A stretch of 62,067 nt of DNA from Okeania sp. SIO2C9. GTDB lineage: Bacteria > Cyanobacteriota > Cyanobacteriia > Cyanobacteriales > Microcoleaceae. The position numbers were made by a program, and so were the translations under genes. The notes under the pieces were generated by a model. The model was not told the DNA's origin. It was given only the letters and a program-made list of their open reading frames with translations, and ran no database searches. Position 1 is the stretch's first letter. The number at the start of each line of letters is the position of its first letter. Below are positions 33,409-61,671 of the stretch, in pieces. The DNA is taken from assembly GCF_010672455.1 (NCBI RefSeq), contig NZ_JAAHGO010000036.1, positions 26,654 through 88,720 of the forward strand. Direction: 5' to 3'.

Positions 33409-34030
33409 AACGTTGCAGTTAGGGGTTTAACCCCTCATAGCGCCAAAAAATCAGAAAACATTACCGTAGGGGTTTGGTTTCCAAACCCTCATCTCAAATC
33501 AGGAACCCAACCGACAAAAACTATAACGTTGCAGTTAGGGGTCTTGCCCCTCATAGCGCTAAAAAATCAGAAAACATTACCGTAGGGGTTTGGTTTCCAA
33601 ACCCTCATCTCAAATCAGGAACCCAACCGACAAAAACTATAACGTTACAGTTAGGGGTCTTGCCCCTCATAGCGCTAAAAAATCAGAAAATATTACCGTA
33701 GGGTTTGGTTTCCCAACCCTCATCTCAAATCAGGAACCCAACCGACAAAAACTACAACGTTGCAGTTAGGGGTCTTACCCCTCATAGCGCTAAAAAATCA
33801 GAAAACATTACCGTAGGAGTTTGGTTTCCAAACCCTCATCTAAAATCAGGAACCCAACTGACAAAAACTACAACGTTGCAGTTAGGGGTCTTACCCCTCA
33901 TAGCGCTAAAAAATCAGAAAACATTACCGTAGGAGTTTGGTTTCCAAACCCTCATCTAAAATCAGGAACCCAACTGACAAAAACTATAACGTTGCAGTTA
34001 GGGGTTAAACTCCTCATAGCGCCAAAAAAA
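33409..34030. repeat. 116-bp minisatellite, about 5.3 units
   Basis: Units start AACGTTGCAGTTAGGGG at 33409, 33525, 33641, 33757, 33873 and 33989. 116 is not a multiple of three, so the overlapping ORFs it generates cycle through frames and are not genes. Each unit has a GGTTTGGTTTCCAAACCC hairpin. The stretch 32876-33408 holds the 47-bp array and GTTGGGT-rich hairpin sequence only. Confidence 0.95.
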
Positions 34031-34140
34031 TCAGAATTATCTTCCCGCAGTAATTATTAGAGTTTTTTATGAATTTAAAATAAGTAGTAAAAACCAAAAA
34101 CGTTCTAAACTAAGTAAAAAATTAATTTGGAGTTAAACCA

Positions 34141-50290: not shown

Positions 50291-50995
50291 TTAATTCACA
50301 CCTTGACAATATTCTTCATAAACACCATCAAGCAATAAATTTAAAGCATCTACTGCCTGAGCTGCTGCTGATAATGCCTCCTGTTTTTCAACATCAGTTT
50401 CACACATTTTTACTAATGCTTCTCTTGTAACTTGGCTGTGAATTTCATCAGCTTTTTCATGTACTTGAAAAAAGGCTAAAGCTGCTTCAGAATTAATGCC
50501 ATAAAATTCTTTCAAACCAGCAATTTTAGTAGTAGCTACTTCAGGAATTTGAGACTCATAAGCATAAAGAGCAGCTAAACCTTTTGCCGGATTTTCACTG
50601 CGGGATAACTCTTTGAGAATACTTACAGATTCCTTGGTTTTTGCTAAATGTGGTCTATTTTTAACTGCTTCCCGTTTTACACCCAAACCTTCCGCAAAAC
50701 GTAACCATAATTCCGGATGATTTGCTGCTCCCATTTCCTCTTCCATAAGATTTTCTAACAGCATTTTACGAGTTTCTAAATCATCACAAGCTGCATGAGT
50801 AGCACTAACATAAGTGGGGAAATAATGAACTTGTAGATAATACTCTTGAGCATACTCTTGCAACATTTCTAGAGAAAGTTTTCCTTCATTCCACATTTGG
50901 TAGAAAGAGTGCTTAAGTAGATGTTGTTTTTCAATAATCTCATCAAGTTGTGCAAGGAAATCTTGTGCAGTCATTTGTGTATTTTGAAGCAACAT
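50291..50995 (-). CDS. CADD-type protein (TENA/PQQC-like), probable pABA/folate role
   Basis: 234 residues, all-helical heme-oxygenase-like fold of the CADD group. Proteins of this group supply para-aminobenzoate for folate in Chlamydia, using a di-metal site and sacrificing one of their own residues. Expected ligand-bearing blocks are visible: LMEEEMGAANHPELW (Glu, His), ALYAYESQIPEVATTKIAGL (Glu and the Lys after it) and AFFQVHEKADEIHS (His, Asp, His). SFYQMW near residue 31 has the conserved Tyr. The length fits the family. ATG is the complement of 50993-50995. The gene stands alone; a plain spacer follows on its 5' side. Confidence 0.85.
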   Translation of the reverse strand: MLLQNTQMTAQDFLAQLDEIIEKQHLLKHSFYQMWNEGKLSLEMLQEYAQEYYLQVHYFPTYVSATHAACDDLETRKMLLENLMEEEMGAANHPELWLRFAEGLGVKREAVKNRPHLAKTKESVSILKELSRSENPAKGLAALYAYESQIPEVATTKIAGLKEFYGINSEAALAFFQVHEKADEIHSQVTREALVKMCETDVEKQEALSAAAQAVDALNLLLDGVYEEYCQGVN

Positions 50996-51748: not shown

Positions 51749-52057
51749 AAAGTTTTTGGTCCTGATATAAAAGATCATAAACAATATATTTTCCCTATAT
51801 TTGACGATTTTGAACGGGGTGAATCAGATGATAATTTATTAGGTTATTTGTTTTTAGTTGACACTAATATTTTTCAAGGAAAAATAGAAGATCCAGAAGT
51901 CAATCTTACATACCTAATGAAGCTTACTTTCCCCTATCCTCCACGTCCTCAATTAGGAGTACAGCTTAATAAGAATGATTTGGATGAATGGATAAAGAAT
52001 AGAGAAAAGAAAGAATTTATTGCAAAAAATCCTTATATTCCATCAAGCTCTTCTTAA
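51749..52057 (+). pseudogene. C-terminal fragment of a PYIP-tail protein
   Basis: A 102-codon open stretch without a start (stop TAG at 51746-51748). It aligns with the last 90 or so residues of the 54957 protein: YIFPIFDDFERGESDDNLLG, DTNIFQGKIEDPE, FPYPPRPQLGV, DLDEWIKNR and the tail AKNPYIPSSSS. The N-terminal half is missing. A rho-independent terminator follows 43 bases after the stop. Function of the family is unknown. Confidence 0.7.
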
Positions 52058-52099
52058 TTCTTTTCAACTACATTTATATTAAAATTAAGTATACGCTTT

Positions 52100-52129
52100 A
52101 CCCGCTTCATACAAACGCGGGTTTTTTTA
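52100..52129 (+). terminator. Rho-independent terminator
   Basis: Stem ACCCGC / GCGGGT with an 11-base loop followed by a run of T residues (to 52129). It closes the PYIP-tail fragment on the plus strand. This is the clearest intrinsic terminator in the window. Confidence 0.8.
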
Positions 52130-52257
52130 TAAGTAGTAATTAGTAGTACTAATTGGAAAAAGCATTACAAATTGTTTAGTGTGATCGCTTTCTAAAGATA
52201 AGATACTATAGTCACAGAAATTTATTCTCAAGTCTAATTAAATTTCATCCTTAACTG

Positions 52258-52591
52258 CGGGTGAGCCTTTGAGAATGTGGTAGCGGTTGGCGTCCCTATT
52301 GGTTATGGTGGTTGGATGAAGAATACAAAAATTTACATTGGAGAAGTCAAAAATGTGGTAAAATTAGTGGTATCAGAGTATTTTAGCTGTCAATGTTATA
52401 TTGCCATTGACGCATCTGAACCTTATCTTTCTCAGATAATTAAGTTTATTGATTCTGACAATTTAATATTTGGCTCAAATGATCCAGACATAGCTCTTTA
52501 GCCAGATGTTGTGGAGCTTCAGGAAAAGTTATCTCCGGAGATAGTGAACAAGATTGTTTGGGATAATCCTAGATGTTTTGATCGCATTTGA
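52258..52591 (+). pseudogene. C-terminal remnant of an amidohydrolase
   Basis: Homologous to the last 110 residues of the 52643 gene: EYFSCQCYIAIDASEPYLSQ, IIKFIDSDNLIFGSNDPDIA and IVWDNPRCFDRI correspond. It has an in-frame TAG after DIAL, and the metal-site region reads GSNDPDI where the intact gene has GSDYPHI. No N-terminal part. It is the first of two such remnants flanking the intact copy. Confidence 0.8.
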
Positions 52592-52642
52592 GGCAAAATC
52601 TACGAGATTTATGATGACTATATTGTACCTGGTCAACAGAAA

Positions 52643-53728
52643 ATGCTAAAAGGATATTCAATTATTGATGCAGACTCCCATGTTATTGAACCTCCTAGTA
52701 TGTGGGCTGAGTATCTCGATCCAGAATTTCAACAGTTTGCTCCTTCAGCAGACATGAAAATTAAAGGGGAAAACATTTCAGAGAAGATTTCTGAAAAATT
52801 GCAGGAGATAGTAAATAAGCAAATGATGGAAAATCACCCCAATGCTTATTTTCATAGCTATAATTCAGAGTCTCATGTCCAAGAGATGGTGAGGATGGGG
52901 ATAGATCGGGCATTCCTTTATCCAAATTATGGGTTGTTGCTTTGGGGTATCGATACTATGGCACCTGAAGTTGCAGGAGCTTTCACTCGTGCCTACAATA
53001 CTTGGTTATTTGAAGAATTTTGTAGTTACGATCCAGAACGCTTGAGAGGAGTGGGCGCAATTAATCTTCATCAACCAGAGAAGATGGTGTTAGAATTGCA
53101 TCGAATTGCAGAATATGGCGGTAAAGCAGTTTTTTTACGACCTAACCCAATTAAAGGGAGATTATTAAGCAATCCTGCCTATGAACCTTTTTGGACGGAA
53201 TGTGAAAAATTGAATATGGCCATAGGAATTCATGAAGGTACTCATAGTCTTTTACCTACAGTAGGTGCAGAAAGATTCAGAACTCAGTTTGCACTTCACG
53301 CTTGTTCCCATCCCATGGAACAGATGATGGCTTTATTGGCTTTAATTGAAGGAGGGGTGTTGGAGCGTCATCCGAAACTGCGGGTGGGGTTTCTTGAATC
53401 AGGTTGTGGTTGGCTTCCCTATTGGTTATGGCGACTGGATCAAGAATACGAAAATTTATATTGGGAAGTGAAAGATAATGTTAAAATACCACCGTCAGAA
53501 TATTTTCGTCGTCAGTGTTATGTTGCGATTGAACCATCTGAATCTTATCTTTCTCAGATTATTCAATATATAGGTTCTGATAATTTAATCTTTGGTTCAG
53601 ATTATCCTCACATAGATCATCAGCCAGATGTGATCGATCAATTGGTGGGACTTGAGAAAGATTTATCGAAAGAAACTCTGAAAAAGATTGGTTGGGATAA
53701 TCCTGCTCGCTTTTATGGTCTGGTCTGA
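52643..53728 (+). CDS. Amidohydrolase family 2 (ACMSD-like) metal enzyme
   Basis: 361 residues. TIM-barrel amidohydrolase-related protein (PF04909 type). Strand 1 carries IIDADSHVIEPPSMW (D-x-H-like metal ligands). GIHEGTHS and HACSHPMEQMMALLALI give the next His residues. FLESGCGWLPYWLWRLDQEY and NLIFGSDYPHID supply the catalytic Asp near residue 318. Members hydrolyse or decarboxylate aromatic or heteroaromatic acids; the substrate here is unknown. ATG at 52643. Only 26 bases separate it from the next gene, so they are very likely co-transcribed. Two decayed copies of its 3' end lie at 52258-52591 and 54649-54886. Confidence 0.85.
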   Translation: MLKGYSIIDADSHVIEPPSMWAEYLDPEFQQFAPSADMKIKGENISEKISEKLQEIVNKQMMENHPNAYFHSYNSESHVQEMVRMGIDRAFLYPNYGLLLWGIDTMAPEVAGAFTRAYNTWLFEEFCSYDPERLRGVGAINLHQPEKMVLELHRIAEYGGKAVFLRPNPIKGRLLSNPAYEPFWTECEKLNMAIGIHEGTHSLLPTVGAERFRTQFALHACSHPMEQMMALLALIEGGVLERHPKLRVGFLESGCGWLPYWLWRLDQEYENLYWEVKDNVKIPPSEYFRRQCYVAIEPSESYLSQIIQYIGSDNLIFGSDYPHIDHQPDVIDQLVGLEKDLSKETLKKIGWDNPARFYGLV

Positions 53729-53754
53729 AATTATTATCCAATAGGAGTTAGAAA

Positions 53755-54639
53755 ATGACGTTCTCTGACAAAGACTATGATGAATACATCTTTCAAATAC
53801 TGTTATATGAAAATCAAGAATTTAAATTAGTATACGGAAAGAAAAAAGATATACACAAAAATTATAACATAGATTCTTTATCTTTAGGAGTAAACGTCGA
53901 TCCAAATTTTGTGGATAAACAAGATATTGAATACCCCACTGTGTTTTTTTTACTAAAATGTCGTAAACTATCCCAGGTTGTAACTTCTACTTGGCTGACG
54001 CCAAGCCAGATAGATCAGATAGAAGCAAAAAACAATACCCGAAAAAACCAAATAATATTGACCAGGCAGATACTAGATTCATATAATATTATCCCTCATG
54101 CTACTTATTGGCTGCATAAGCAGAATGAATCTAATGATGAATATGAACTCAGGAAAGTAAACGATCAGGATATACACACAAGACTAGAGGAAGAGGATAA
54201 TCAATTTTATTGTATTACGCCTACACACATAAGTTATCGGTCAATATCTTTAGTCCTTTTATTATGTGGGCAAGCATATTACAAAGAGAATAATGCCTGG
54301 ACAAAAATTTGTGAACCCATTTTTAGTACCTATGAAACTATTTGGGAGTATGGATTAGATATATCTTGGGATACATATTATTCTACTAGGATAGATGTTT
54401 CCCAAGCTGGAAAAATGCCAGTACCTCCTTTTACCTCAGTAGTTCTAGGTTATCCCCCGAAACCAAATACGTTTTCTCTTGAAGATGACAAGATCGAATA
54501 CTGGGTTAATTCAAATGAATATGATTCTGGTGAAAATAAATACCCATTTTATCCCCAGAAAGGCACAATTGAATGGGAGAAGAAAGATTTAAAGTATATA
54601 GTTCCTCCCTATCCTTATATTCCTCTTAGCTGTCTGTAA
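53755..54639 (+). CDS. Unrecognised protein with PYIP-type C-terminal tail
   Basis: 294 residues, no family recognised, no signal peptide or membrane helix. It is rich in aromatic and charged residues. The C-terminal third relates to the 54957 and 51749 products through PPFTSVVLGYPPKPNTFSLE, IEYWVNSNE and the end PPYPYIPLSCL. A good Shine-Dalgarno AGGAG lies 7 bases before the ATG, and the gene follows the amidohydrolase by 26 bases, so the two probably form an operon. A conserved tail with Ser/Cys at the extreme C-terminus could be a modification or attachment site, or simply a structural end. This is inference. Confidence 0.6.
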   Translation: MTFSDKDYDEYIFQILLYENQEFKLVYGKKKDIHKNYNIDSLSLGVNVDPNFVDKQDIEYPTVFFLLKCRKLSQVVTSTWLTPSQIDQIEAKNNTRKNQIILTRQILDSYNIIPHATYWLHKQNESNDEYELRKVNDQDIHTRLEEEDNQFYCITPTHISYRSISLVLLLCGQAYYKENNAWTKICEPIFSTYETIWEYGLDISWDTYYSTRIDVSQAGKMPVPPFTSVVLGYPPKPNTFSLEDDKIEYWVNSNEYDSGENKYPFYPQKGTIEWEKKDLKYIVPPYPYIPLSCL

Positions 54640-54648
54640 TTAAAACAT

Positions 54649-54886
54649 AGGAAGTCAAAGATATGGTAAGATTGACACTGTTAGAGTACTTTCGCAGTCA
54701 ATGTTATACTGGGGTCTATCCATCTTAACCTTATCTGAACTAAGATAATTTCATCTTTGGCTCAGATTATCCACACATGGATCGTCAGTCAGATATTGTG
54801 AAAAATTCTGTAAAGCTTTAGAGGAAGTTGTCTCCAAAAATTTAAAAAAAATTTTTGGGGATAATCCTAGACATCTCTATGGTTGT
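54649..54886 (+). pseudogene. Second amidohydrolase C-terminal remnant
   Basis: EYFRSQCYTGVYPS, then, after stops and frame changes, FIFGSDYPHMDRQSD and GDNPRHLYG can be aligned to the end of the 52643 gene. It is more decayed than the remnant at 52258. It lies between the two PYIP-tail genes, which points to duplication of a two-gene unit followed by loss of the enzyme copies. Confidence 0.75.
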
Positions 54887-54905
54887 GAAGAATTCAGCTA
54901 TTCAT

Positions 54906-54927
54906 TAGAGTTGTTGGGAAAATAACA
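54906..54927. mobile_element. Solitary end of the IS5-like element
   Basis: ATTAGAGTTGTTGGGAAAATAA equals the inverted end at 28445 with one extra A. No partner end nearby. It lies 30 bases before the 54957 start and may be a relic of an insertion or deletion. Confidence 0.6.
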
Positions 54928-54956
54928 AACTTTATAATTCATCAAGGAACAATATT

Positions 54957-55586
54957 ATGTCCAGAAGACTTATTTCAAAGTATCAGAATCATTTGGCAAA
55001 TCCGGAGAATGCTGTTCAATCTGCAACTGGTCAGATAATACAGCGGATGCTTGAACAAGTAAAAGTAATTTCTATATTAATTACATATTCATGGAGGTAT
55101 AATCAGCCAGATTCTACCCCTGAGCAGTTATTGACTGCTCAAAGGTTGCAATACTATTTCCGACATACTGTTCCCGATCCACTATGGCGTAGAGATGAAG
55201 AAGTAAAAAGACTCTTTCCTAATGTTACTAAAGCCCCAGTACTCGAAGATTTAATGGGTGCTGAACTTAATAGCGATACTATTCCAGGTGAAGTATTGTG
55301 TACTGTTTTTGCTACTCCCATAGGTTATGTATTTCCAATTTTTGAAAAGATAGCTATTGATTTCAAGTTGGTATCATTTGAAATTGATACTGGTATATTT
55401 AACGGCTGGATCACAGATCCTGACCCAAATTCTCCTCATATGTTGACAGTCGTGATTGCCTTTCCGCCTCGTCCAGCACTTAGTGATGCAACAGTCACAA
55501 ATACTGAATTGGAAGATTGGATCGATAATCGATCTCCAGTGAAATTTATGTCTGAAAATCCTTACATTCCTACCTGTAGTTGTTAA
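54957..55586 (+). CDS. Unrecognised protein with PYIP-type C-terminal tail
   Basis: 209 residues, family not recognised. The N-terminal half is helical and polar (MSRRLISKYQNHLANPENAV, QSATGQIIQRMLEQVKV, YYFRHTVPDPLWRRDEEVKR). The C-terminal half matches the fragment at 51749 (YVFPIFEKI, DTGIFNGWITDPDPNSP, FPPRPALSD, ELEDWIDNR) and ends SENPYIPTCSC. No signal or membrane segment. AAGGA lies about 9 bases before the ATG. An IS end sits just upstream, so its promoter context may be new. The paralogs differ strongly in the N-terminal part but keep the tail, so the tail is probably functionally important. Confidence 0.6.
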   Translation: MSRRLISKYQNHLANPENAVQSATGQIIQRMLEQVKVISILITYSWRYNQPDSTPEQLLTAQRLQYYFRHTVPDPLWRRDEEVKRLFPNVTKAPVLEDLMGAELNSDTIPGEVLCTVFATPIGYVFPIFEKIAIDFKLVSFEIDTGIFNGWITDPDPNSPHMLTVVIAFPPRPALSDATVTNTELEDWIDNRSPVKFMSENPYIPTCSC

Positions 55587-55836: not shown

Positions 55837-58800
55837 ATGAATACTATAAACAAAAAGAATAGGAACTATAAGTTTATTGAACAAATCTATGAAAGTGCTA
55901 ACTCTTTAGTTTATCGAGCTATTCTCAAAGCAAATAATCAGCCTCTTATTCTCAAAATTCTTAAAGAAAACTACCCTACTGCTTCCGAACTCACACGCTA
56001 CAAACAAGAATATGAAATTATTCGCTCCTTGAATGTAGATAGCATTGTTAAAGCTTACGACCTACAAAGATATGAGAATAGTTTAGCAATACTTCTAGAA
56101 GACTTCGGCGGTCAATCTCTAAAATTACTAATATCTCAATCTCAATTCAACTTAGAAAACTTTCTAACTATTGCTATTAAAACAACAGAAAGTTTAGCAG
56201 CAATTCATACTGCTAATATTATCCACAAAGACATTAACCCCTCAAATATTGTCTATAACCCCCAAACAAAACAACTAAAAATTATCGACTTTGGCATATC
56301 TACCCGTTTATCCCAAGAATTTATCACAGTTATCCCCCCCAACCAACTAGAAGGAACCTTAGCATATATCGCTCCAGAACAAACAGGTAGAATGAACCGA
56401 GGGATAGATTATCGTAGCGACTTTTATTCCCTGGGCGTAACTTTCTATGAACTTTTAACGAATAAACTGCCTTTTGAAATAACTGACCCCATGGAGTTAG
56501 TTCATTGCCATATTGCCCAACAACCATTACCAGTACATGAACTAATTCCTGATATTTCTAATTCTGTGTCTAATATAATCAGCAAATTGTTAGCTAAAAC
56601 CCCAGAAGAAAGATATCAAAGCGCTTGGGGAATTAAAGCAGATTTAGAAACTTGTCTAGAGCAATTAAAAACTTTAGGACAAATTTCAGACTTTCCTTTA
56701 GCCACTCAAGATATTTGTGATAAATTTCAGATTCCTCAAAAACTCTATGGTAGAGAGCAAGAACTCGAGGAACTATTAACAGCATTCGAGCAAGTAAGTC
56801 TGGGAAAAACAGGAATGATTCTGATTTCTGGTTATTCAGGAATTGGTAAATCAGCATTAGTCAATGAAATTCACAAACCCATTACAAAAAAACGAGGAAA
56901 ATTTATTAGTGGTAAATTTGACCAGTTGAATCGAGATATTCCTTATTCAGCTATTTGTCTAGCTTTTCAAGAGTTAATCCGTAAACTCCTAAGCGAACCA
57001 GATATAACTCTACAAACCTGGAAAAATCAACTATTAGAAGTTCTAGGAAATAATGGTCAAATTATCATTGATGTGATTCCCGAACTGGAAAAAATTATCG
57101 GTCAACAACCACAAGTTGAACAATTAGGAGCTAGCGAAAGTCAAAATAGATTTAATTTATTTTTTCAAAGGTTTCTGAATGTGTTTTGTCAAAAACAACA
57201 TCCTTTAGTAATTTTTATTGACGATTTACAATGGGCAGATTTACCATCCCTGAACTTAATAGAGCAATTAATGTCAGATTATGAGAACCAATATTTTCTG
57301 TTAATAGGAGCATATCGAGATAATGAAGTTAGTCCTACTCATCCTCTAGTACGGACTTTAGATAAAATTAAGACTGCACAAGTACCCGTTAACGAAATTA
57401 CCCTTTACCCTTTAAAAATTAATCATATTAATCAATTAATCGCTGATACCCTAAGTTGCTCCACAGAAATTACCAAACCTTTAGCAGAATTAGTTACCAA
57501 AAAAACAGGAGGCAATCCATTTTTTCTGACTCAACTGCTGAGTTCTTTGTACCAAGAAAATTTATTAGTATTTAACCCGGAGCAATATTCTCTGAACATA
57601 GAAAACGATGGACAAAGTTATTGGCAATGGGATATAGAAGAAATTGAAAGAGTTTCCATCACTGATAACGTAGTTGATTTAATGGTCAGAAAAATTGAAA
57701 AATTAGATGAAACAACTCAACAAGTTCTCAAATTAGCAGCTTGTATTGGCAACAAATTTAATTTAGAAATCCTGTCAATTGTTAATAATAAATCTCAAAC
57801 AGTCACAGCTAATGAATTACAGTCTGCCTTACACGAAGGGCTGATTTTTCCGTTGAAAAATAACTATAAAGCTCCTTTACTTTGGAATCCAGAAGACTTA
57901 TCAAATAACCTCTCAGAAAACTATTTTGAATCGGCAAAATATATCTCCTACAAATTTTTACATGACCGAGTACAACAAGCATCTTATTCTCTGATTCCAG
58001 CAGCAGAAAAAAAGCAAGTGCATCTACAAATAGGTCGTCTACTTTTGAAAAATCTTGAAGAGGATAAATTACAGAATAAGATTTTTGATGTTGTCAATCA
58101 ACTGAATCAAGGGTCTAGTTTAATTACCGAACAATTAGAAAAAGATGAGTTAGCGAAATTAAATCTTCAAGTCGGAAAAAAGGCCAAAGACTCCACCGCT
58201 TATGAGCCAGCACTAATATATTTAGAAACAGCCTTAGAGTTACTGTCATCAGAAAGCTGGAAAAATCAATATCATTTAACTTTAGAAATTTATACAGAAG
58301 CCGTAGAACTTCAATACTTTAATTCTCAGTTTGAACAAGCTGAAACTCTAGCTGCTATTGTTCTTCAAAATGCTCAAGAAGTTCTCGATACAGTAAAAAT
58401 TTATGAATTAAAAATTGAATCTTATCATGCCCAAGTCCTCGTAAAAGAAGCGGTAGATGTTACCTTTGAAATTTTAGCCAAGCTAGGAGTTTATATTCCA
58501 TCTGACGTAAATCAACAGGAGGAAAAAATTGCTCAAGAAGAAAAAGTGATAGCGTTATTTTTGCAGGATAAATCTATTGCTCAGTTAGCAAATTTACCTG
58601 CGATGATCGATCCTTACAAACTTGCTGCTGTTAGGCTATTAGTTCTTACTACTACATCTGCCATGATTTATAGCCCTGAAGTCTGTGGGCTGATAACTTT
58701 AACTGCTATTACTCTCTGTCTAAAATATGGAAACTCACCTTTAGCAACTAGTGTCTATTGTTTTTATGGAATAGCTATATGTGGTATGATTCTGACTCAA

Positions 58801-61671
58801 GATATTAAATCTGGATATGAGTTTGGGAAACTAGCTTATCATTTGTTGAATAAGAGTAATACTGATGAAGCAAAACCATTTGTTATTATTCATTACTATG
58901 GATTTATTCGTCATTGGAAAGAACCTTTTAGACAAATCAACCTCAATGATTTTGAAGATGTAATTCAAATTGGACTGGAACGAGGAGATTTTCGACATAC
59001 TGGTTATAATATAATTTCTTATTGTCTTTTTTCAATTTTTCGTGGTTTTAATCTTGAAGACTTTGAATCTAAGTGTAGAGCTTATGGTAAGTTAATAAAA
59101 CCAACACAAGAATATGAATATTATTATTATGAATCTTGTCAAAAAATGGTTTTAAATTTGTTGAAAGAAGACCGAAAAAAATATCATTTATTATTTGAAA
59201 AATCTCAAGAAGAAGAAGATGAATTAATACAAATTTGGATTGATAATAATACTGATTGGTTATTGTTTATTTCCAGTCTCAGTAAAACATTTGCTGCCTA
59301 TTTTTTTAAAGATTATGAGCGAGGATTAGAAACGGTTTATTTATCGGAAAAACACTCTCGACCTTGTTCAGCTTATCTCGTTTATCCACAAAATGTTTTT
59401 TACTCGGCATTAACTCTTTTAGCCGTTTATCCTCAAGCTGATATTGAAGAAAAACAACTTATCCTTGAGAAAGTTACAGAACATCAAAAAAAGATGTATT
59501 ATTTCCAGGAAAATTGCCCTGAGAATTATGGAAATAAATACTATTTAATCGAAGCAGAAAAAGCCAGAATATTAGGAAAAACTTTACAAGCGCAAGAACT
59601 GTACGATCGCGCCATTCAAGGAGCAAAAAAATATGAATTTATCCATGAAGAAGCTTTAGCTTACGAACGAGCAGCAGAATTTTATCTCGCCCTTGACAGA
59701 CAAGAAATCGGTCAATTTTACCTCAGAAATGCCCATCATTGTTACATCCGTTGGGGAGCAAAAGCTAAAGTCAAACAATTAGAAGAGGAATATCCCCAAT
59801 ATTTATTAGGAGTAGCAAATAAAAATAAATTAAAAGGTATTAGTACAACTATTTCTGCCTCCGGTAATGATGGAGAAATTCTTGACTTAACCACAGTAAT
59901 GAAATCATCTCAAGCAATTTCTGGTGAAATTAAGCTGGAAAATCTCCTGCACAATTTAATGAAAATTACTATCGAAAATGCTGGGGCACAAACAGGATTT
60001 TTAATTCTCTACCATCAAGGAAATTGGGTTATAGAAGCTCAAGGAAAAATAAACAGCGACGAAGTAACAATTTTACAATCAATTCCCATCGAATCTACAG
60101 ACCCCCAAACATCACTTCCCATATTACCAACTACCATTATTAACTATGTAATTCGCACTCAAGAAAATATTGCACTCAACGACGCAGCTAACCAAGGACA
60201 ATTTATTAATGACCCCTATATTATCGCCACAAAAAGTAAATCAATTCTCTGTACACCCCTAATTAACCAAGGTCAATTAAGCGGAATAGTTTATTTAGAA
60301 AATAATTTAACCACAAATACATTCACCTCAGAAAGAGTCGAACTATTAAATATTTTATCTGCTCAAGCAGCAATTTCCATCGACAATTCCCGACTTTATC
60401 AAACCCTAGAACAAAGAGTAGAAGAACGCACAAAAGAACTATCTCAAACCTTAGACGTTCTCAAAGCAACTCAAGCAGAACTAATCTTTGAAAATGAACT
60501 ACTAAAAACTGACAAACCCGCCTCTAATTTTAACTATAAAGTAGGTGGAAGTTTGCCCAATAATTCCCCTACTTATGTAGTCCGGCAAGCCGATCGCTCC
60601 CTCTATCAAGCCTTAAAACAGGGTGAATTTTGTTATATTTTAAATGCCCGACAAATGGGAAAATCTAGTCTGATGGTCAGAATGATCCACCATCTCAACC
60701 ATGAAGGACATCATTGTGCCGCAATAGATTTAACTCAAATTGGCAGTGAAAATGTCACCGTAGAACAATGGTATAAAGGATTAGCTGTCGATCTATTGCG
60801 TAGTTTTCGTTTAATGAAAAAATTTAACTTAATCAAATTAAAAACTTGGTGGAATGACAGATTAGATATTTCTCCCGTACAAAGATTAGGTCAATTTATT
60901 GAAGATATTTTATTAGTTGAACTGAATAACGAGGACGATGAATCTATCAAAAAAGTCTTCATTTTTCTGGATGAAGTTGATACTATTTTAAGCTTAAAAT
61001 TTCCAGTAAATGACTTTTTTGCCCTGATACGTTCTTGTTATAATCAACGCATGATTCATCCAGAATCTAGATACCAGAATCTCACCTTTGCTTTTTTTGG
61101 AGTAGCTACTCCTTCAGAATTAATGACTGACATTAGAAGAACCCCTTTTAACATTGGTCAAACAATTGAACTAGAAAGCTTCAAAACACATGAAGCACAA
61201 CCTTTATTATATGGAATAACAGAAAAAGTTAGTAATCCTCAAACCATGCTCCAAGAAATATTAAACTGGACCGGAGGACAACCTTTTTTAACTCAAAAAC
61301 TATGTCAGTTAATTCGTAATTCAGAAATACCAATTCCAGTCAATGGTGAAACTAAATGGATAGAAAACTTAGTACAAGAAAAAATCCTGAAAAATTGGGA
61401 AAGTCAAGATGAACCAGAACATTTAAAAACCATACGCGATCGTATATTTCATAGTAAAAATAGAAGACAAATGCTCGAAATCTATCAACAATTATTAGAG
61501 CAAAAAGAGATAATGAGAACAAATATTCCAGAAGAAAAAGAATTATGTTTATCTGGACTGGTAATTAAGCAAAATGAATTACTGAAAATTCACAACCGCA
61601 TTTATGAATTAATATTTAATCACAGTTGGACAGAAAAAAATCTGCTTGAAGTCAAGAGTCAGGAGTCGTAG
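55837..61671 (+). CDS. Giant Ser/Thr kinase-ATPase-GAF protein with C-terminal AAA-like domain
   Basis: 1944 residues. Kinase domain about 12-275: ESANSLVYRA in place of a Gly-rich loop, LILKILKE lysine, IIHKDINPSNIV, IIDFGIST, YIAPEQTGRMNRGIDYRSDF. AAA_16-type ATPase from about 302, with Walker A ISGYSGIGKSALV and Walker B IFIDDLQWAD. Helical TPR-like region to about 1330. GAF domain about 1355-1530, then a coiled coil (QRVEERTKELSQTLDVLKAT). In the usual cyanobacterial relatives a histidine kinase follows; here, from about 1565, comes an AAA-like (AAA_35-type) domain: NYKVGGSLPNNSPTYVVRQA, ILNARQMGKSSLMVRM, IFLDEVDTILSL and WTGGQPFLTQKLC. It is probably a cytoplasmic signalling hub. The last residues (EVKSQES) and stop come from a GAGTCAGGAGTC repeat. 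Confidence 0.9.
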   Translation: MNTINKKNRNYKFIEQIYESANSLVYRAILKANNQPLILKILKENYPTASELTRYKQEYEIIRSLNVDSIVKAYDLQRYENSLAILLEDFGGQSLKLLISQSQFNLENFLTIAIKTTESLAAIHTANIIHKDINPSNIVYNPQTKQLKIIDFGISTRLSQEFITVIPPNQLEGTLAYIAPEQTGRMNRGIDYRSDFYSLGVTFYELLTNKLPFEITDPMELVHCHIAQQPLPVHELIPDISNSVSNIISKLLAKTPEERYQSAWGIKADLETCLEQLKTLGQISDFPLATQDICDKFQIPQKLYGREQELEELLTAFEQVSLGKTGMILISGYSGIGKSALVNEIHKPITKKRGKFISGKFDQLNRDIPYSAICLAFQELIRKLLSEPDITLQTWKNQLLEVLGNNGQIIIDVIPELEKIIGQQPQVEQLGASESQNRFNLFFQRFLNVFCQKQHPLVIFIDDLQWADLPSLNLIEQLMSDYENQYFLLIGAYRDNEVSPTHPLVRTLDKIKTAQVPVNEITLYPLKINHINQLIADTLSCSTEITKPLAELVTKKTGGNPFFLTQLLSSLYQENLLVFNPEQYSLNIENDGQSYWQWDIEEIERVSITDNVVDLMVRKIEKLDETTQQVLKLAACIGNKFNLEILSIVNNKSQTVTANELQSALHEGLIFPLKNNYKAPLLWNPEDLSNNLSENYFESAKYISYKFLHDRVQQASYSLIPAAEKKQVHLQIGRLLLKNLEEDKLQNKIFDVVNQLNQGSSLITEQLEKDELAKLNLQVGKKAKDSTAYEPALIYLETALELLSSESWKNQYHLTLEIYTEAVELQYFNSQFEQAETLAAIVLQNAQEVLDTVKIYELKIESYHAQVLVKEAVDVTFEILAKLGVYIPSDVNQQEEKIAQEEKVIALFLQDKSIAQLANLPAMIDPYKLAAVRLLVLTTTSAMIYSPEVCGLITLTAITLCLKYGNSPLATSVYCFYGIAICGMILTQDIKSGYEFGKLAYHLLNKSNTDEAKPFVIIHYYGFIRHWKEPFRQINLNDFEDVIQIGLERGDFRHTGYNIISYCLFSIFRGFNLEDFESKCRAYGKLIKPTQEYEYYYYESCQKMVLNLLKEDRKKYHLLFEKSQEEEDELIQIWIDNNTDWLLFISSLSKTFAAYFFKDYERGLETVYLSEKHSRPCSAYLVYPQNVFYSALTLLAVYPQADIEEKQLILEKVTEHQKKMYYFQENCPENYGNKYYLIEAEKARILGKTLQAQELYDRAIQGAKKYEFIHEEALAYERAAEFYLALDRQEIGQFYLRNAHHCYIRWGAKAKVKQLEEEYPQYLLGVANKNKLKGISTTISASGNDGEILDLTTVMKSSQAISGEIKLENLLHNLMKITIENAGAQTGFLILYHQGNWVIEAQGKINSDEVTILQSIPIESTDPQTSLPILPTTIINYVIRTQENIALNDAANQGQFINDPYIIATKSKSILCTPLINQGQLSGIVYLENNLTTNTFTSERVELLNILSAQAAISIDNSRLYQTLEQRVEERTKELSQTLDVLKATQAELIFENELLKTDKPASNFNYKVGGSLPNNSPTYVVRQADRSLYQALKQGEFCYILNARQMGKSSLMVRMIHHLNHEGHHCAAIDLTQIGSENVTVEQWYKGLAVDLLRSFRLMKKFNLIKLKTWWNDRLDISPVQRLGQFIEDILLVELNNEDDESIKKVFIFLDEVDTILSLKFPVNDFFALIRSCYNQRMIHPESRYQNLTFAFFGVATPSELMTDIRRTPFNIGQTIELESFKTHEAQPLLYGITEKVSNPQTMLQEILNWTGGQPFLTQKLCQLIRNSEIPIPVNGETKWIENLVQEKILKNWESQDEPEHLKTIRDRIFHSKNRRQMLEIYQQLLEQKEIMRTNIPEEKELCLSGLVIKQNELLKIHNRIYELIFNHSWTEKNLLEVKSQES

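Follow-up and report, generated by a model that had tools for sequence, protein, structure and literature searches.

Fused YcaO cyclodehydratases of the TOMM type (thiazole/oxazole-modified microcins) form rings on Cys, Ser and Thr residues, and in bottromycin, a ribosomally synthesized and post-translationally modified peptide (RiPP), a P450 enzyme serves in the conversion of the terminal thiazoline to a decarboxylated thiazole. For this terminal thiazole route of bottromycin, BtmJ, a P450, and PurAH are named in the accessible parts of PMC10127204. The same source describes LynB7 of Moorena bouillonii, an enzyme of a nonribosomal pathway that converts a thiazoline-4-carboxylic acid to the thiazole with Fe2+ and O2 in an oxidative decarboxylation; a carboxamide substrate yields no product, i.e. 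the free 4-carboxylic acid is needed. Ribosomal precursors with a nitrile hydratase leader peptide (NHLP) define another group of TOMM clusters (TIGR03793; Haft et al. 2010, PMC2887384; also PMC4603692), and those of the Burkholderia type are accompanied by a large Ser/Thr kinase, as far as PMC2887384 was available. The locus described here lies in a stretch of 62,067 nucleotides from contig NZ_JAAHGO010000036.1 of the cyanobacterium Okeania sp. SIO2C9 (the window), where an intact enzyme gene of the family PF04909 stands among genes and remnants of proteins that end with PYIPLSCL (294 aa), NPYIPTCSC (209 aa) and NPYIPSSSS (69 aa), in the following termed PYIP proteins. It is likely that this locus belongs to a RiPP pathway of the TOMM type with very large precursors, in which a YcaO enzyme would form azolines from C-terminal Cys, Ser or Thr and a LynB7-like enzyme would then generate a decarboxylated azole.

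In relatives, a 765-aa protein encoded next to these genes was identified as a fused TOMM-type YcaO cyclodehydratase, which in locus L034 matches PF02624 with an E-value of 8.6e-103, TIGR03604 with 265 bits (cut-off 219) and TIGR03882 with 181 bits (cut-off 37). A scan of named genomes was anchored on this YcaO, with counts made on the best 80 of 175 relatives and with author-set thresholds (more than 25 bits for the tail family, more than 100 bits for the enzyme, at least 400 aa and more than 300 bits for the kinase; weaker matches are uncounted). The PF04909 enzyme is present at 62 of these 80 loci, a Ser/Thr kinase at 54, a tail-family protein at 52 and all three at 41, while a radical S-adenosylmethionine (SAM) enzyme is found at 8 and SagB at 5. 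At the 62 loci for which 7 kb or more of downstream sequence was available, the respective numbers are 54 (enzyme), 52 (kinase), 44 (tail family), 39 (all three), 6 (radical SAM) and 4 (SagB). Once NHLP-type precursors are included, a precursor is recognised at 56 of the 62 enzyme loci. Homologs that lack both the enzyme neighbour and the tail were not found among the proteins examined: at 6 of the 52 tail-family loci, the enzyme is missing from the examined stretch, yet the tail is present, as it is in genome G028, which has no YcaO.

The association is seen also from the other components. An enzyme relative with at least 63% identity is encoded in 19 of 386 genomes of an even phylum sample, with the next identity falling to 41%, and a YcaO lies in the stretch around that enzyme in 16 of the 19 (the exceptions are G000, G305 and G380). 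Among near genomes, any YcaO is found in 9 of 11 with the tail family vs 28 of 87 without it (Fisher p 0.002, kinship uncorrected), and in a YcaO tree (quick search, midpoint root) the PYIP clusters fall into one clade of 69 rows with a Shimodaira-Hasegawa-like support (SH-aLRT) of 100, 51 of which have a PYIP-family protein in the examined stretch. Culturable carriers of the system include Nostoc calcicola FACHB-3891 (L183) and Cylindrospermum sp. NIES-4074 (L180). Sister clusters are further found on a contig labelled Ca. Gracilibacteria and on two contigs of Ca. Parabeggiatoa. Beyond YcaO, enzyme, kinase and precursor, further partners among the 80 loci are one unnamed protein cluster (13 loci), the radical SAM enzyme and another cluster (6 loci); no exporter or protease was seen to be recurrent there. 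The radical SAM enzyme, with 8 of the 80 loci, was dismissed as a core component; these loci all have precursors of 147-227 aa, one of them additionally a precursor of 347 aa. Like cyanobactin clusters with their PatD-type heterocyclase, the PYIP clusters combine a fused cyclodehydratase with a cyanobacterial origin, but a PatA-like protease is found at only 2 of the 80 loci (PatG was not searched separately), which is why PatA was rejected as a releasing enzyme, and two cyanobactin-like heterocyclases (L085, L090) lie outside the YcaO clade. In L094:6045-10423, a VioA-like flavoprotein (84 bits, below cut-off) is encoded between an NHLP-type precursor ending with -ACC and the YcaO.

The second component, the 361-aa enzyme, matches the amidohydrolase family PF04909, and in a sequence search PtmU3 (E 3e-35) is its best solved relative; the PF04909 chains that come next include several described dinuclear oxygenases (SfbO and relatives, AibH2). 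PtmU3 and SfbO rank first also in a fold search with the predicted structure, a model of moderate quality with a predicted local distance difference test (pLDDT) of 74.7 that drops below 50 at residues 253-256, 291-298 and 309-324, which touch the metal site. The preliminary description of the window, made from its letters, had called the enzyme ACMSD-like; this is right at the level of the superfamily, but the closest solved structures are dinuclear oxygenases, and an ACMSD-type decarboxylase was rejected on the ranking of the matches and the metal site. The metal site of LynB7, as given on a predicted model in the accessible text of PMC10127204, comprises H13, H197, H323, D11, D320 and E252, and a further active-site residue is D325, the equivalent of which in PtmU3 is E313. 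All seven residues are present in the enzyme of the window with identical numbers (D11, H13, H197, E252, D320, H323, D325), the comparison resting on the residue numbers reported in that paper; the six ligands are common also to PtmU3, SfbO and AibH2, which differ in substrates and contexts, and in PtmU3 by E313 in the place of D325. Among 79 enzyme relatives, 78 retain the six ligands, the remaining one being a disrupted open reading frame (ORF); D325 is kept in 74, the exact LynB7 spacing in 29 and the exact numbers in 22. The seven residues strongly back the assignment to this enzyme type, they are suggestive of a LynB7-like reaction, and the matching numbers suggest that LynB7/BarH and the enzyme group of the ribosomal clusters are close relatives, with a nonribosomal substrate that ends with a thiazoline acid on the one side and the proposed end of a ribosomal protein on the other. 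LynB7/BarH itself was not recognised by homology search and neighbourhood reading in four Moorena genomes.

Three observations on enzyme variants stand beside this. In L211, L222, L224 and L227, D325 is replaced by His, and the precursor tails there have WIP and not YIP. A second enzyme type of 351 aa adjoins precursors ending with VTF or VSF in four genomes, perhaps as a specialised pair, and L276:913-10535 has a PF04909 enzyme (41% identity) that shares the seven residues and is encoded directly downstream of a polyketide synthase.

The seven residues leave the reaction unfixed, and simple hydroxylation is catalysed by some dinuclear PF04909 enzymes, for example PtmU3 and AibH2 (PMC10811679, PMC10401708, as far as their texts were available). 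It is therefore conceivable, though rather unlikely, that the YcaO makes the azolines of the tail and that the PF04909 enzyme either introduces a hydroxyl group elsewhere or acts as a gate to the pathway through hydrolysis of an azoline amide, like PurAH in bottromycin biosynthesis, a view that would also suit those tails that end with F, L or V. The residue numbers identical to those of LynB7 speak against such a different activity, and LynB7 shares only 14% identity with PurAH according to the accessible part of PMC10127204.

As to the substrate of the two enzymes, no convincing Pfam or NCBIfam match was found for the 209-aa and 294-aa proteins, and neither of them is matched by the NHLP leader model TIGR03793. 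A profile alignment of the long type (294 aa) with the short type (209 aa) at 99.5% probability indicates that the PYIP proteins are truly one related family, as had been assumed at first sight. A profile-profile comparison of the short type with NHLP precursors gives an alignment (96.7%, score 61.8) that spans the region from the helix to the tail, with 20 column shuffles reaching 14 or less; the comparison set was a cleaned version from which wrongly picked ORFs had been removed. With the -CC-ending precursors of the sister clusters, the profile score of the short type is 81, and the long type, which alone is not convincingly similar to NHLP (11%, score 26.5), is connected via the short type. 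A 116-aa protein of Rhizonema (L206) that ends with PYIPLTLC has a TIGR03793 match with an E-value of 1.4e-7, below the cut-off of the model, and precursors of about 104-138 aa from Moorena, Ca. Parabeggiatoa and others end with -GCC, -GSC, -GTC, -NCC, -MCC, -SCC and similar; at one SagB locus the end is -GCL. By these comparisons, the PYIP proteins, with about 115 to 416 aa, are probably enlarged relatives of the NHLP-type RiPP (TOMM) precursors. The clusters resemble those described in the accessible part of PMC2887384 in the profile-level leader homology of the short type, the fused YcaO cyclodehydratase, the Cys/Ser/Thr C-terminus and, in case of the Burkholderia type, the large Ser/Thr kinase. 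They are unlike them in the presence of the PF04909 enzyme, in the exporters and proteases, which are not recurrent, and in the precursors, which reach about 416 aa, have a very short C/S/T end and carry the PYIP motif in place of the Gly-Gly site; in two alignments, the PYIP-type rows show no Gly-Gly cleavage site ahead of the tail. The structure of the 209-aa protein is predicted with a pLDDT of 90.7 and a pTM of 0.88, and the predicted fold has no match in the PDB (best E 2.5). As the protein is confidently predicted to be folded and matches no solved structure, it does not appear to be an ordinary flexible leader.

Relatives of the family are encoded in 11 of 98 near genomes. Matches to the tail family were obtained in 20 of the 386 genomes of the phylum sample, three of which, small genomes of family f41 with E-values of 8e-4 to 9e-4, were treated as spurious; the inspected one (L168) has neither tail nor cluster. 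Genome G016 has 12 family matches, 11 of which form an array on one contig (L033 = G016:C212:1-20000, and L034) with varied tails such as PFIPVCCS, PFIPLCSC, PYIPATCS, PYIPLCTT and SYVPCCCS. A 681-aa ORF in L036 crosses an unknown stretch (X) and was set aside as a doubtful assembly join. In G001:C345:5925-7900 and G001:C410:12-2822, many tandem matches of the NHLP model lie in single ORFs of about 303-319 aa, as if leader domains were fused.

The tails were compared in 109 distinct family ORFs, from which ORFs with X had been removed beforehand. In 101 of them, the C-terminus consists of a motif x-(I/V/L/C/M/F)-P and 1-7 further residues; the 8 ORFs without the motif are mostly fragments or have cut ends, with the exception of one of the 52 tail-family loci (L243, Ca. 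Parabeggiatoa), where CVPVCSC takes the place of a PYIP tail as a related end. S, T or C make up 286 of the 398 residues after the motif, and C/S/T occupies all of the final three positions in 62 of 101 tails vs 4 of 1019 mechanical background ORFs, an enrichment to be read with the caveat that the family-finding model includes tail columns and that the background may include non-genes. The final residue of the 101 tails is S in 41, C in 26, T in 22, F in 9, L in 2 and V in 1, and thus C/S/T in 89. The family therefore has the TOMM feature of a C-terminal core rich in Cys/Ser/Thr, with very short cores. A modification of the tail, which had been raised in the preliminary description, is strongly supported by the recurrent YcaO neighbours together with the homology to RiPP precursors, whereas cleavage or attachment, raised alongside it, finds no support, no further cluster being present at more than 13 of the 80 loci. 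The family-wide conservation of the PYIP motif and the well-folded prediction for the 209-aa protein would also suit adaptors whose unmodified C-terminus docks to the YcaO, the enzyme or the kinase, but this is improbable: the residues after the motif vary and are yet rich in C/S/T, which resembles a RiPP core, and the family is homologous to NHLP precursors, with shorter sister precursors that mostly end with -CC, -SC or similar.

At the level of sequence, the proposed pathway is supported by the precursor homology, the gene association, a metal site with all its residues and the fact that most members end with a residue that can be heterocyclised. In a first step, the leader-binding region of the fused YcaO cyclodehydratase would recruit the PYIP protein as an enlarged NHLP-like leader, and Cys, Ser or Thr after Pro-Tyr-Ile-Pro would be cyclised to azolines, as is expected from the established function of TOMM cyclodehydratases. 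In a second step, the dinuclear PF04909 oxygenase would oxidatively remove CO2 from the terminal azoline-4-carboxylic acid, leaving a decarboxylated C-terminal azole. LynB7 serves as the model for this proposed step, and its requirement for a free acid suits the last residue of a protein; the PF04909 enzyme would thereby replace the usual SagB dehydrogenase and take a role that a P450 has in the bottromycin route. By these analogies, it is probable that the PYIP proteins acquire small aromatic rings at their C-termini.

Several findings weigh against the decarboxylated azole and its pathway. In the genome of the window, the YcaO is unlinked to the locus, being encoded on another contig, and gene copies nearby are decayed. 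A LynB7-type reaction gives no direct account of the 12 of 101 tails that end with F, L or V, and the enzyme is uncorrelated with the end residue, C/S/T ends being found in 56 of 63 precursors at loci with the enzyme vs 9 of 10 without it. Two enzymes from other contexts with 36-41% identity have all seven residues, albeit not the spacing, and the enzyme is present also at 3 of the 5 SagB loci. Moreover, 18 of the 69 YcaO rows of the clade, three from Microcystis and the one from the genome of the window among them, show no PYIP protein in the examined stretch, and G028, with its tail protein and no YcaO, is 93% complete.

As no exporter or protease is recurrent, the modified protein may stay whole. 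A more far-reaching and rather doubtful idea is that the PYIP proteins (about 115 to 416 aa) remain uncleaved and folded and keep the decarboxylated C-terminal azole permanently, as a genetically encoded aromatic cap that would be read or controlled by the giant kinase. In that case, natural-product enzymes would make a protein modification. If the proposed pathway is true, a dinuclear PF04909 oxygenase gains a ribosomal substrate and there is another way to terminal azoles besides flavin dehydrogenases and P450s; it would also show how a RiPP leader may have become a folded protein of several times its original size, and a recurrent cyanobacterial gene set, with a precursor that has no Pfam or NCBIfam name, would become experimentally testable. 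No description of the combination of a YcaO, a PF04909 oxygenase and precursors with PYIP tails was recognised in searches of an open-access library, which covered most of the listed papers by title and the start of the abstract. The word 'amidohydrolase' is absent from the main texts of the NHLP-cluster papers PMC2887384 and PMC4603692, and the available passages of PMC13083261 and PMC11583998 do not mention the combination.

In the source genome (10.9 Mb), YcaO genes are found on contigs C2, C285 and C24. The YcaO of C2 belongs to the clade of the PYIP clusters, is free of internal stops and pairs in the tree with the YcaO of Okeania hirsuta; no precursor or enzyme was recognised within 19.9 kb around it, and it would have to work in trans on the proteins of the window. 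A second PF04909 enzyme is encoded on contig C92, precursor fragments lie on contigs C263 and C284, and just one partial match (31% identity) to the radical SAM enzyme was found. In the window itself, one enzyme is intact, two precursors are apparently so, and further copies are decayed (Table 1). The system is thus scattered over the genome and partly decaying, yet an apparently intact set is present. The layout of the window as first described, including the coordinates, the gap of 26 bases between the genes of the 361-aa enzyme and the 294-aa protein and the three C-termini, is correct. The 69-aa remnant matches the C-terminal half of short-type members with 58 bits (L033:18974 and L043:9638). 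In tblastn comparisons, the remnants of the enzyme gene have piecewise identities of 54.5 to 64.0% to the copy on contig C92 and of 47.3 to 56.6% to the intact neighbour, which argues against a recent gene conversion with that neighbour and leaves the gene conversion of the preliminary description unsupported. An accessory metabolic operon with an ACMSD-like enzyme that undergoes gene conversion is hardly credible, since despite genuine duplications and remnants and a Pfam family in common with ACMSD, the ACMSD match (about 2e-12) is far weaker than that of PtmU3, the remnants are nearer to the C92 paralogue and the neighbours are of the RiPP type.

Table 1. Features of the PYIP locus in the window, and loci with the 351-aa enzyme type in other genomes
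Feature	Position	Strand	Evidence or remark
69-aa short-type PYIP protein, C-terminal remnant	51848..52057	+	tail NPYIPSSSS; homology starts slightly upstream, near 51780
PF04909 enzyme gene, decayed 3' piece with stops	52234..52588	+	tblastn
Intact 361-aa PF04909 enzyme, LynB7-like dinuclear oxygenase (putative reaction)	52643..53728	+	family match, residues, fold search
294-aa long-type PYIP protein (putative precursor)	53755..54639	+	tail PYPYIPLSCL
PF04909 enzyme gene, second decayed 3' piece with stops	54651..54883	+	tblastn
209-aa short-type PYIP protein (putative precursor)	54957..55586	+	tail NPYIPTCSC; predicted folded, pLDDT 90.7
1944-aa Ser/Thr kinase with AAA_16, GAF and AAA_35 domains	55837..61671	+	recurrent cluster partner; HKD and DFG motifs present
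351-aa enzyme type with VTF/VSF precursors	L035:7245-9479, L037:11009-13265, L034:8122-10251, L039:10319-12105

For the kinase, the match to TIGR03903, the model of TOMM kinase/cyclase fusions, has 130.5 bits, which is below the cut-off of 705.75, the best stretch being residues 302-675. In genome G003, the flanking genes are the same, but the place of the locus is taken by the kinase together with one precursor and a radical SAM enzyme. On the minus strand of the window (50291-50995), a CADD-family protein is encoded (TIGR04305, 304 bits, cut-off 200) that is kept also at the matching place in G003 (locus L043). Farther away in the window, at 33474-34060, there is a tandem pair of similar small ORFs of 75 and 79 aa, both starting with MVSKPSS.

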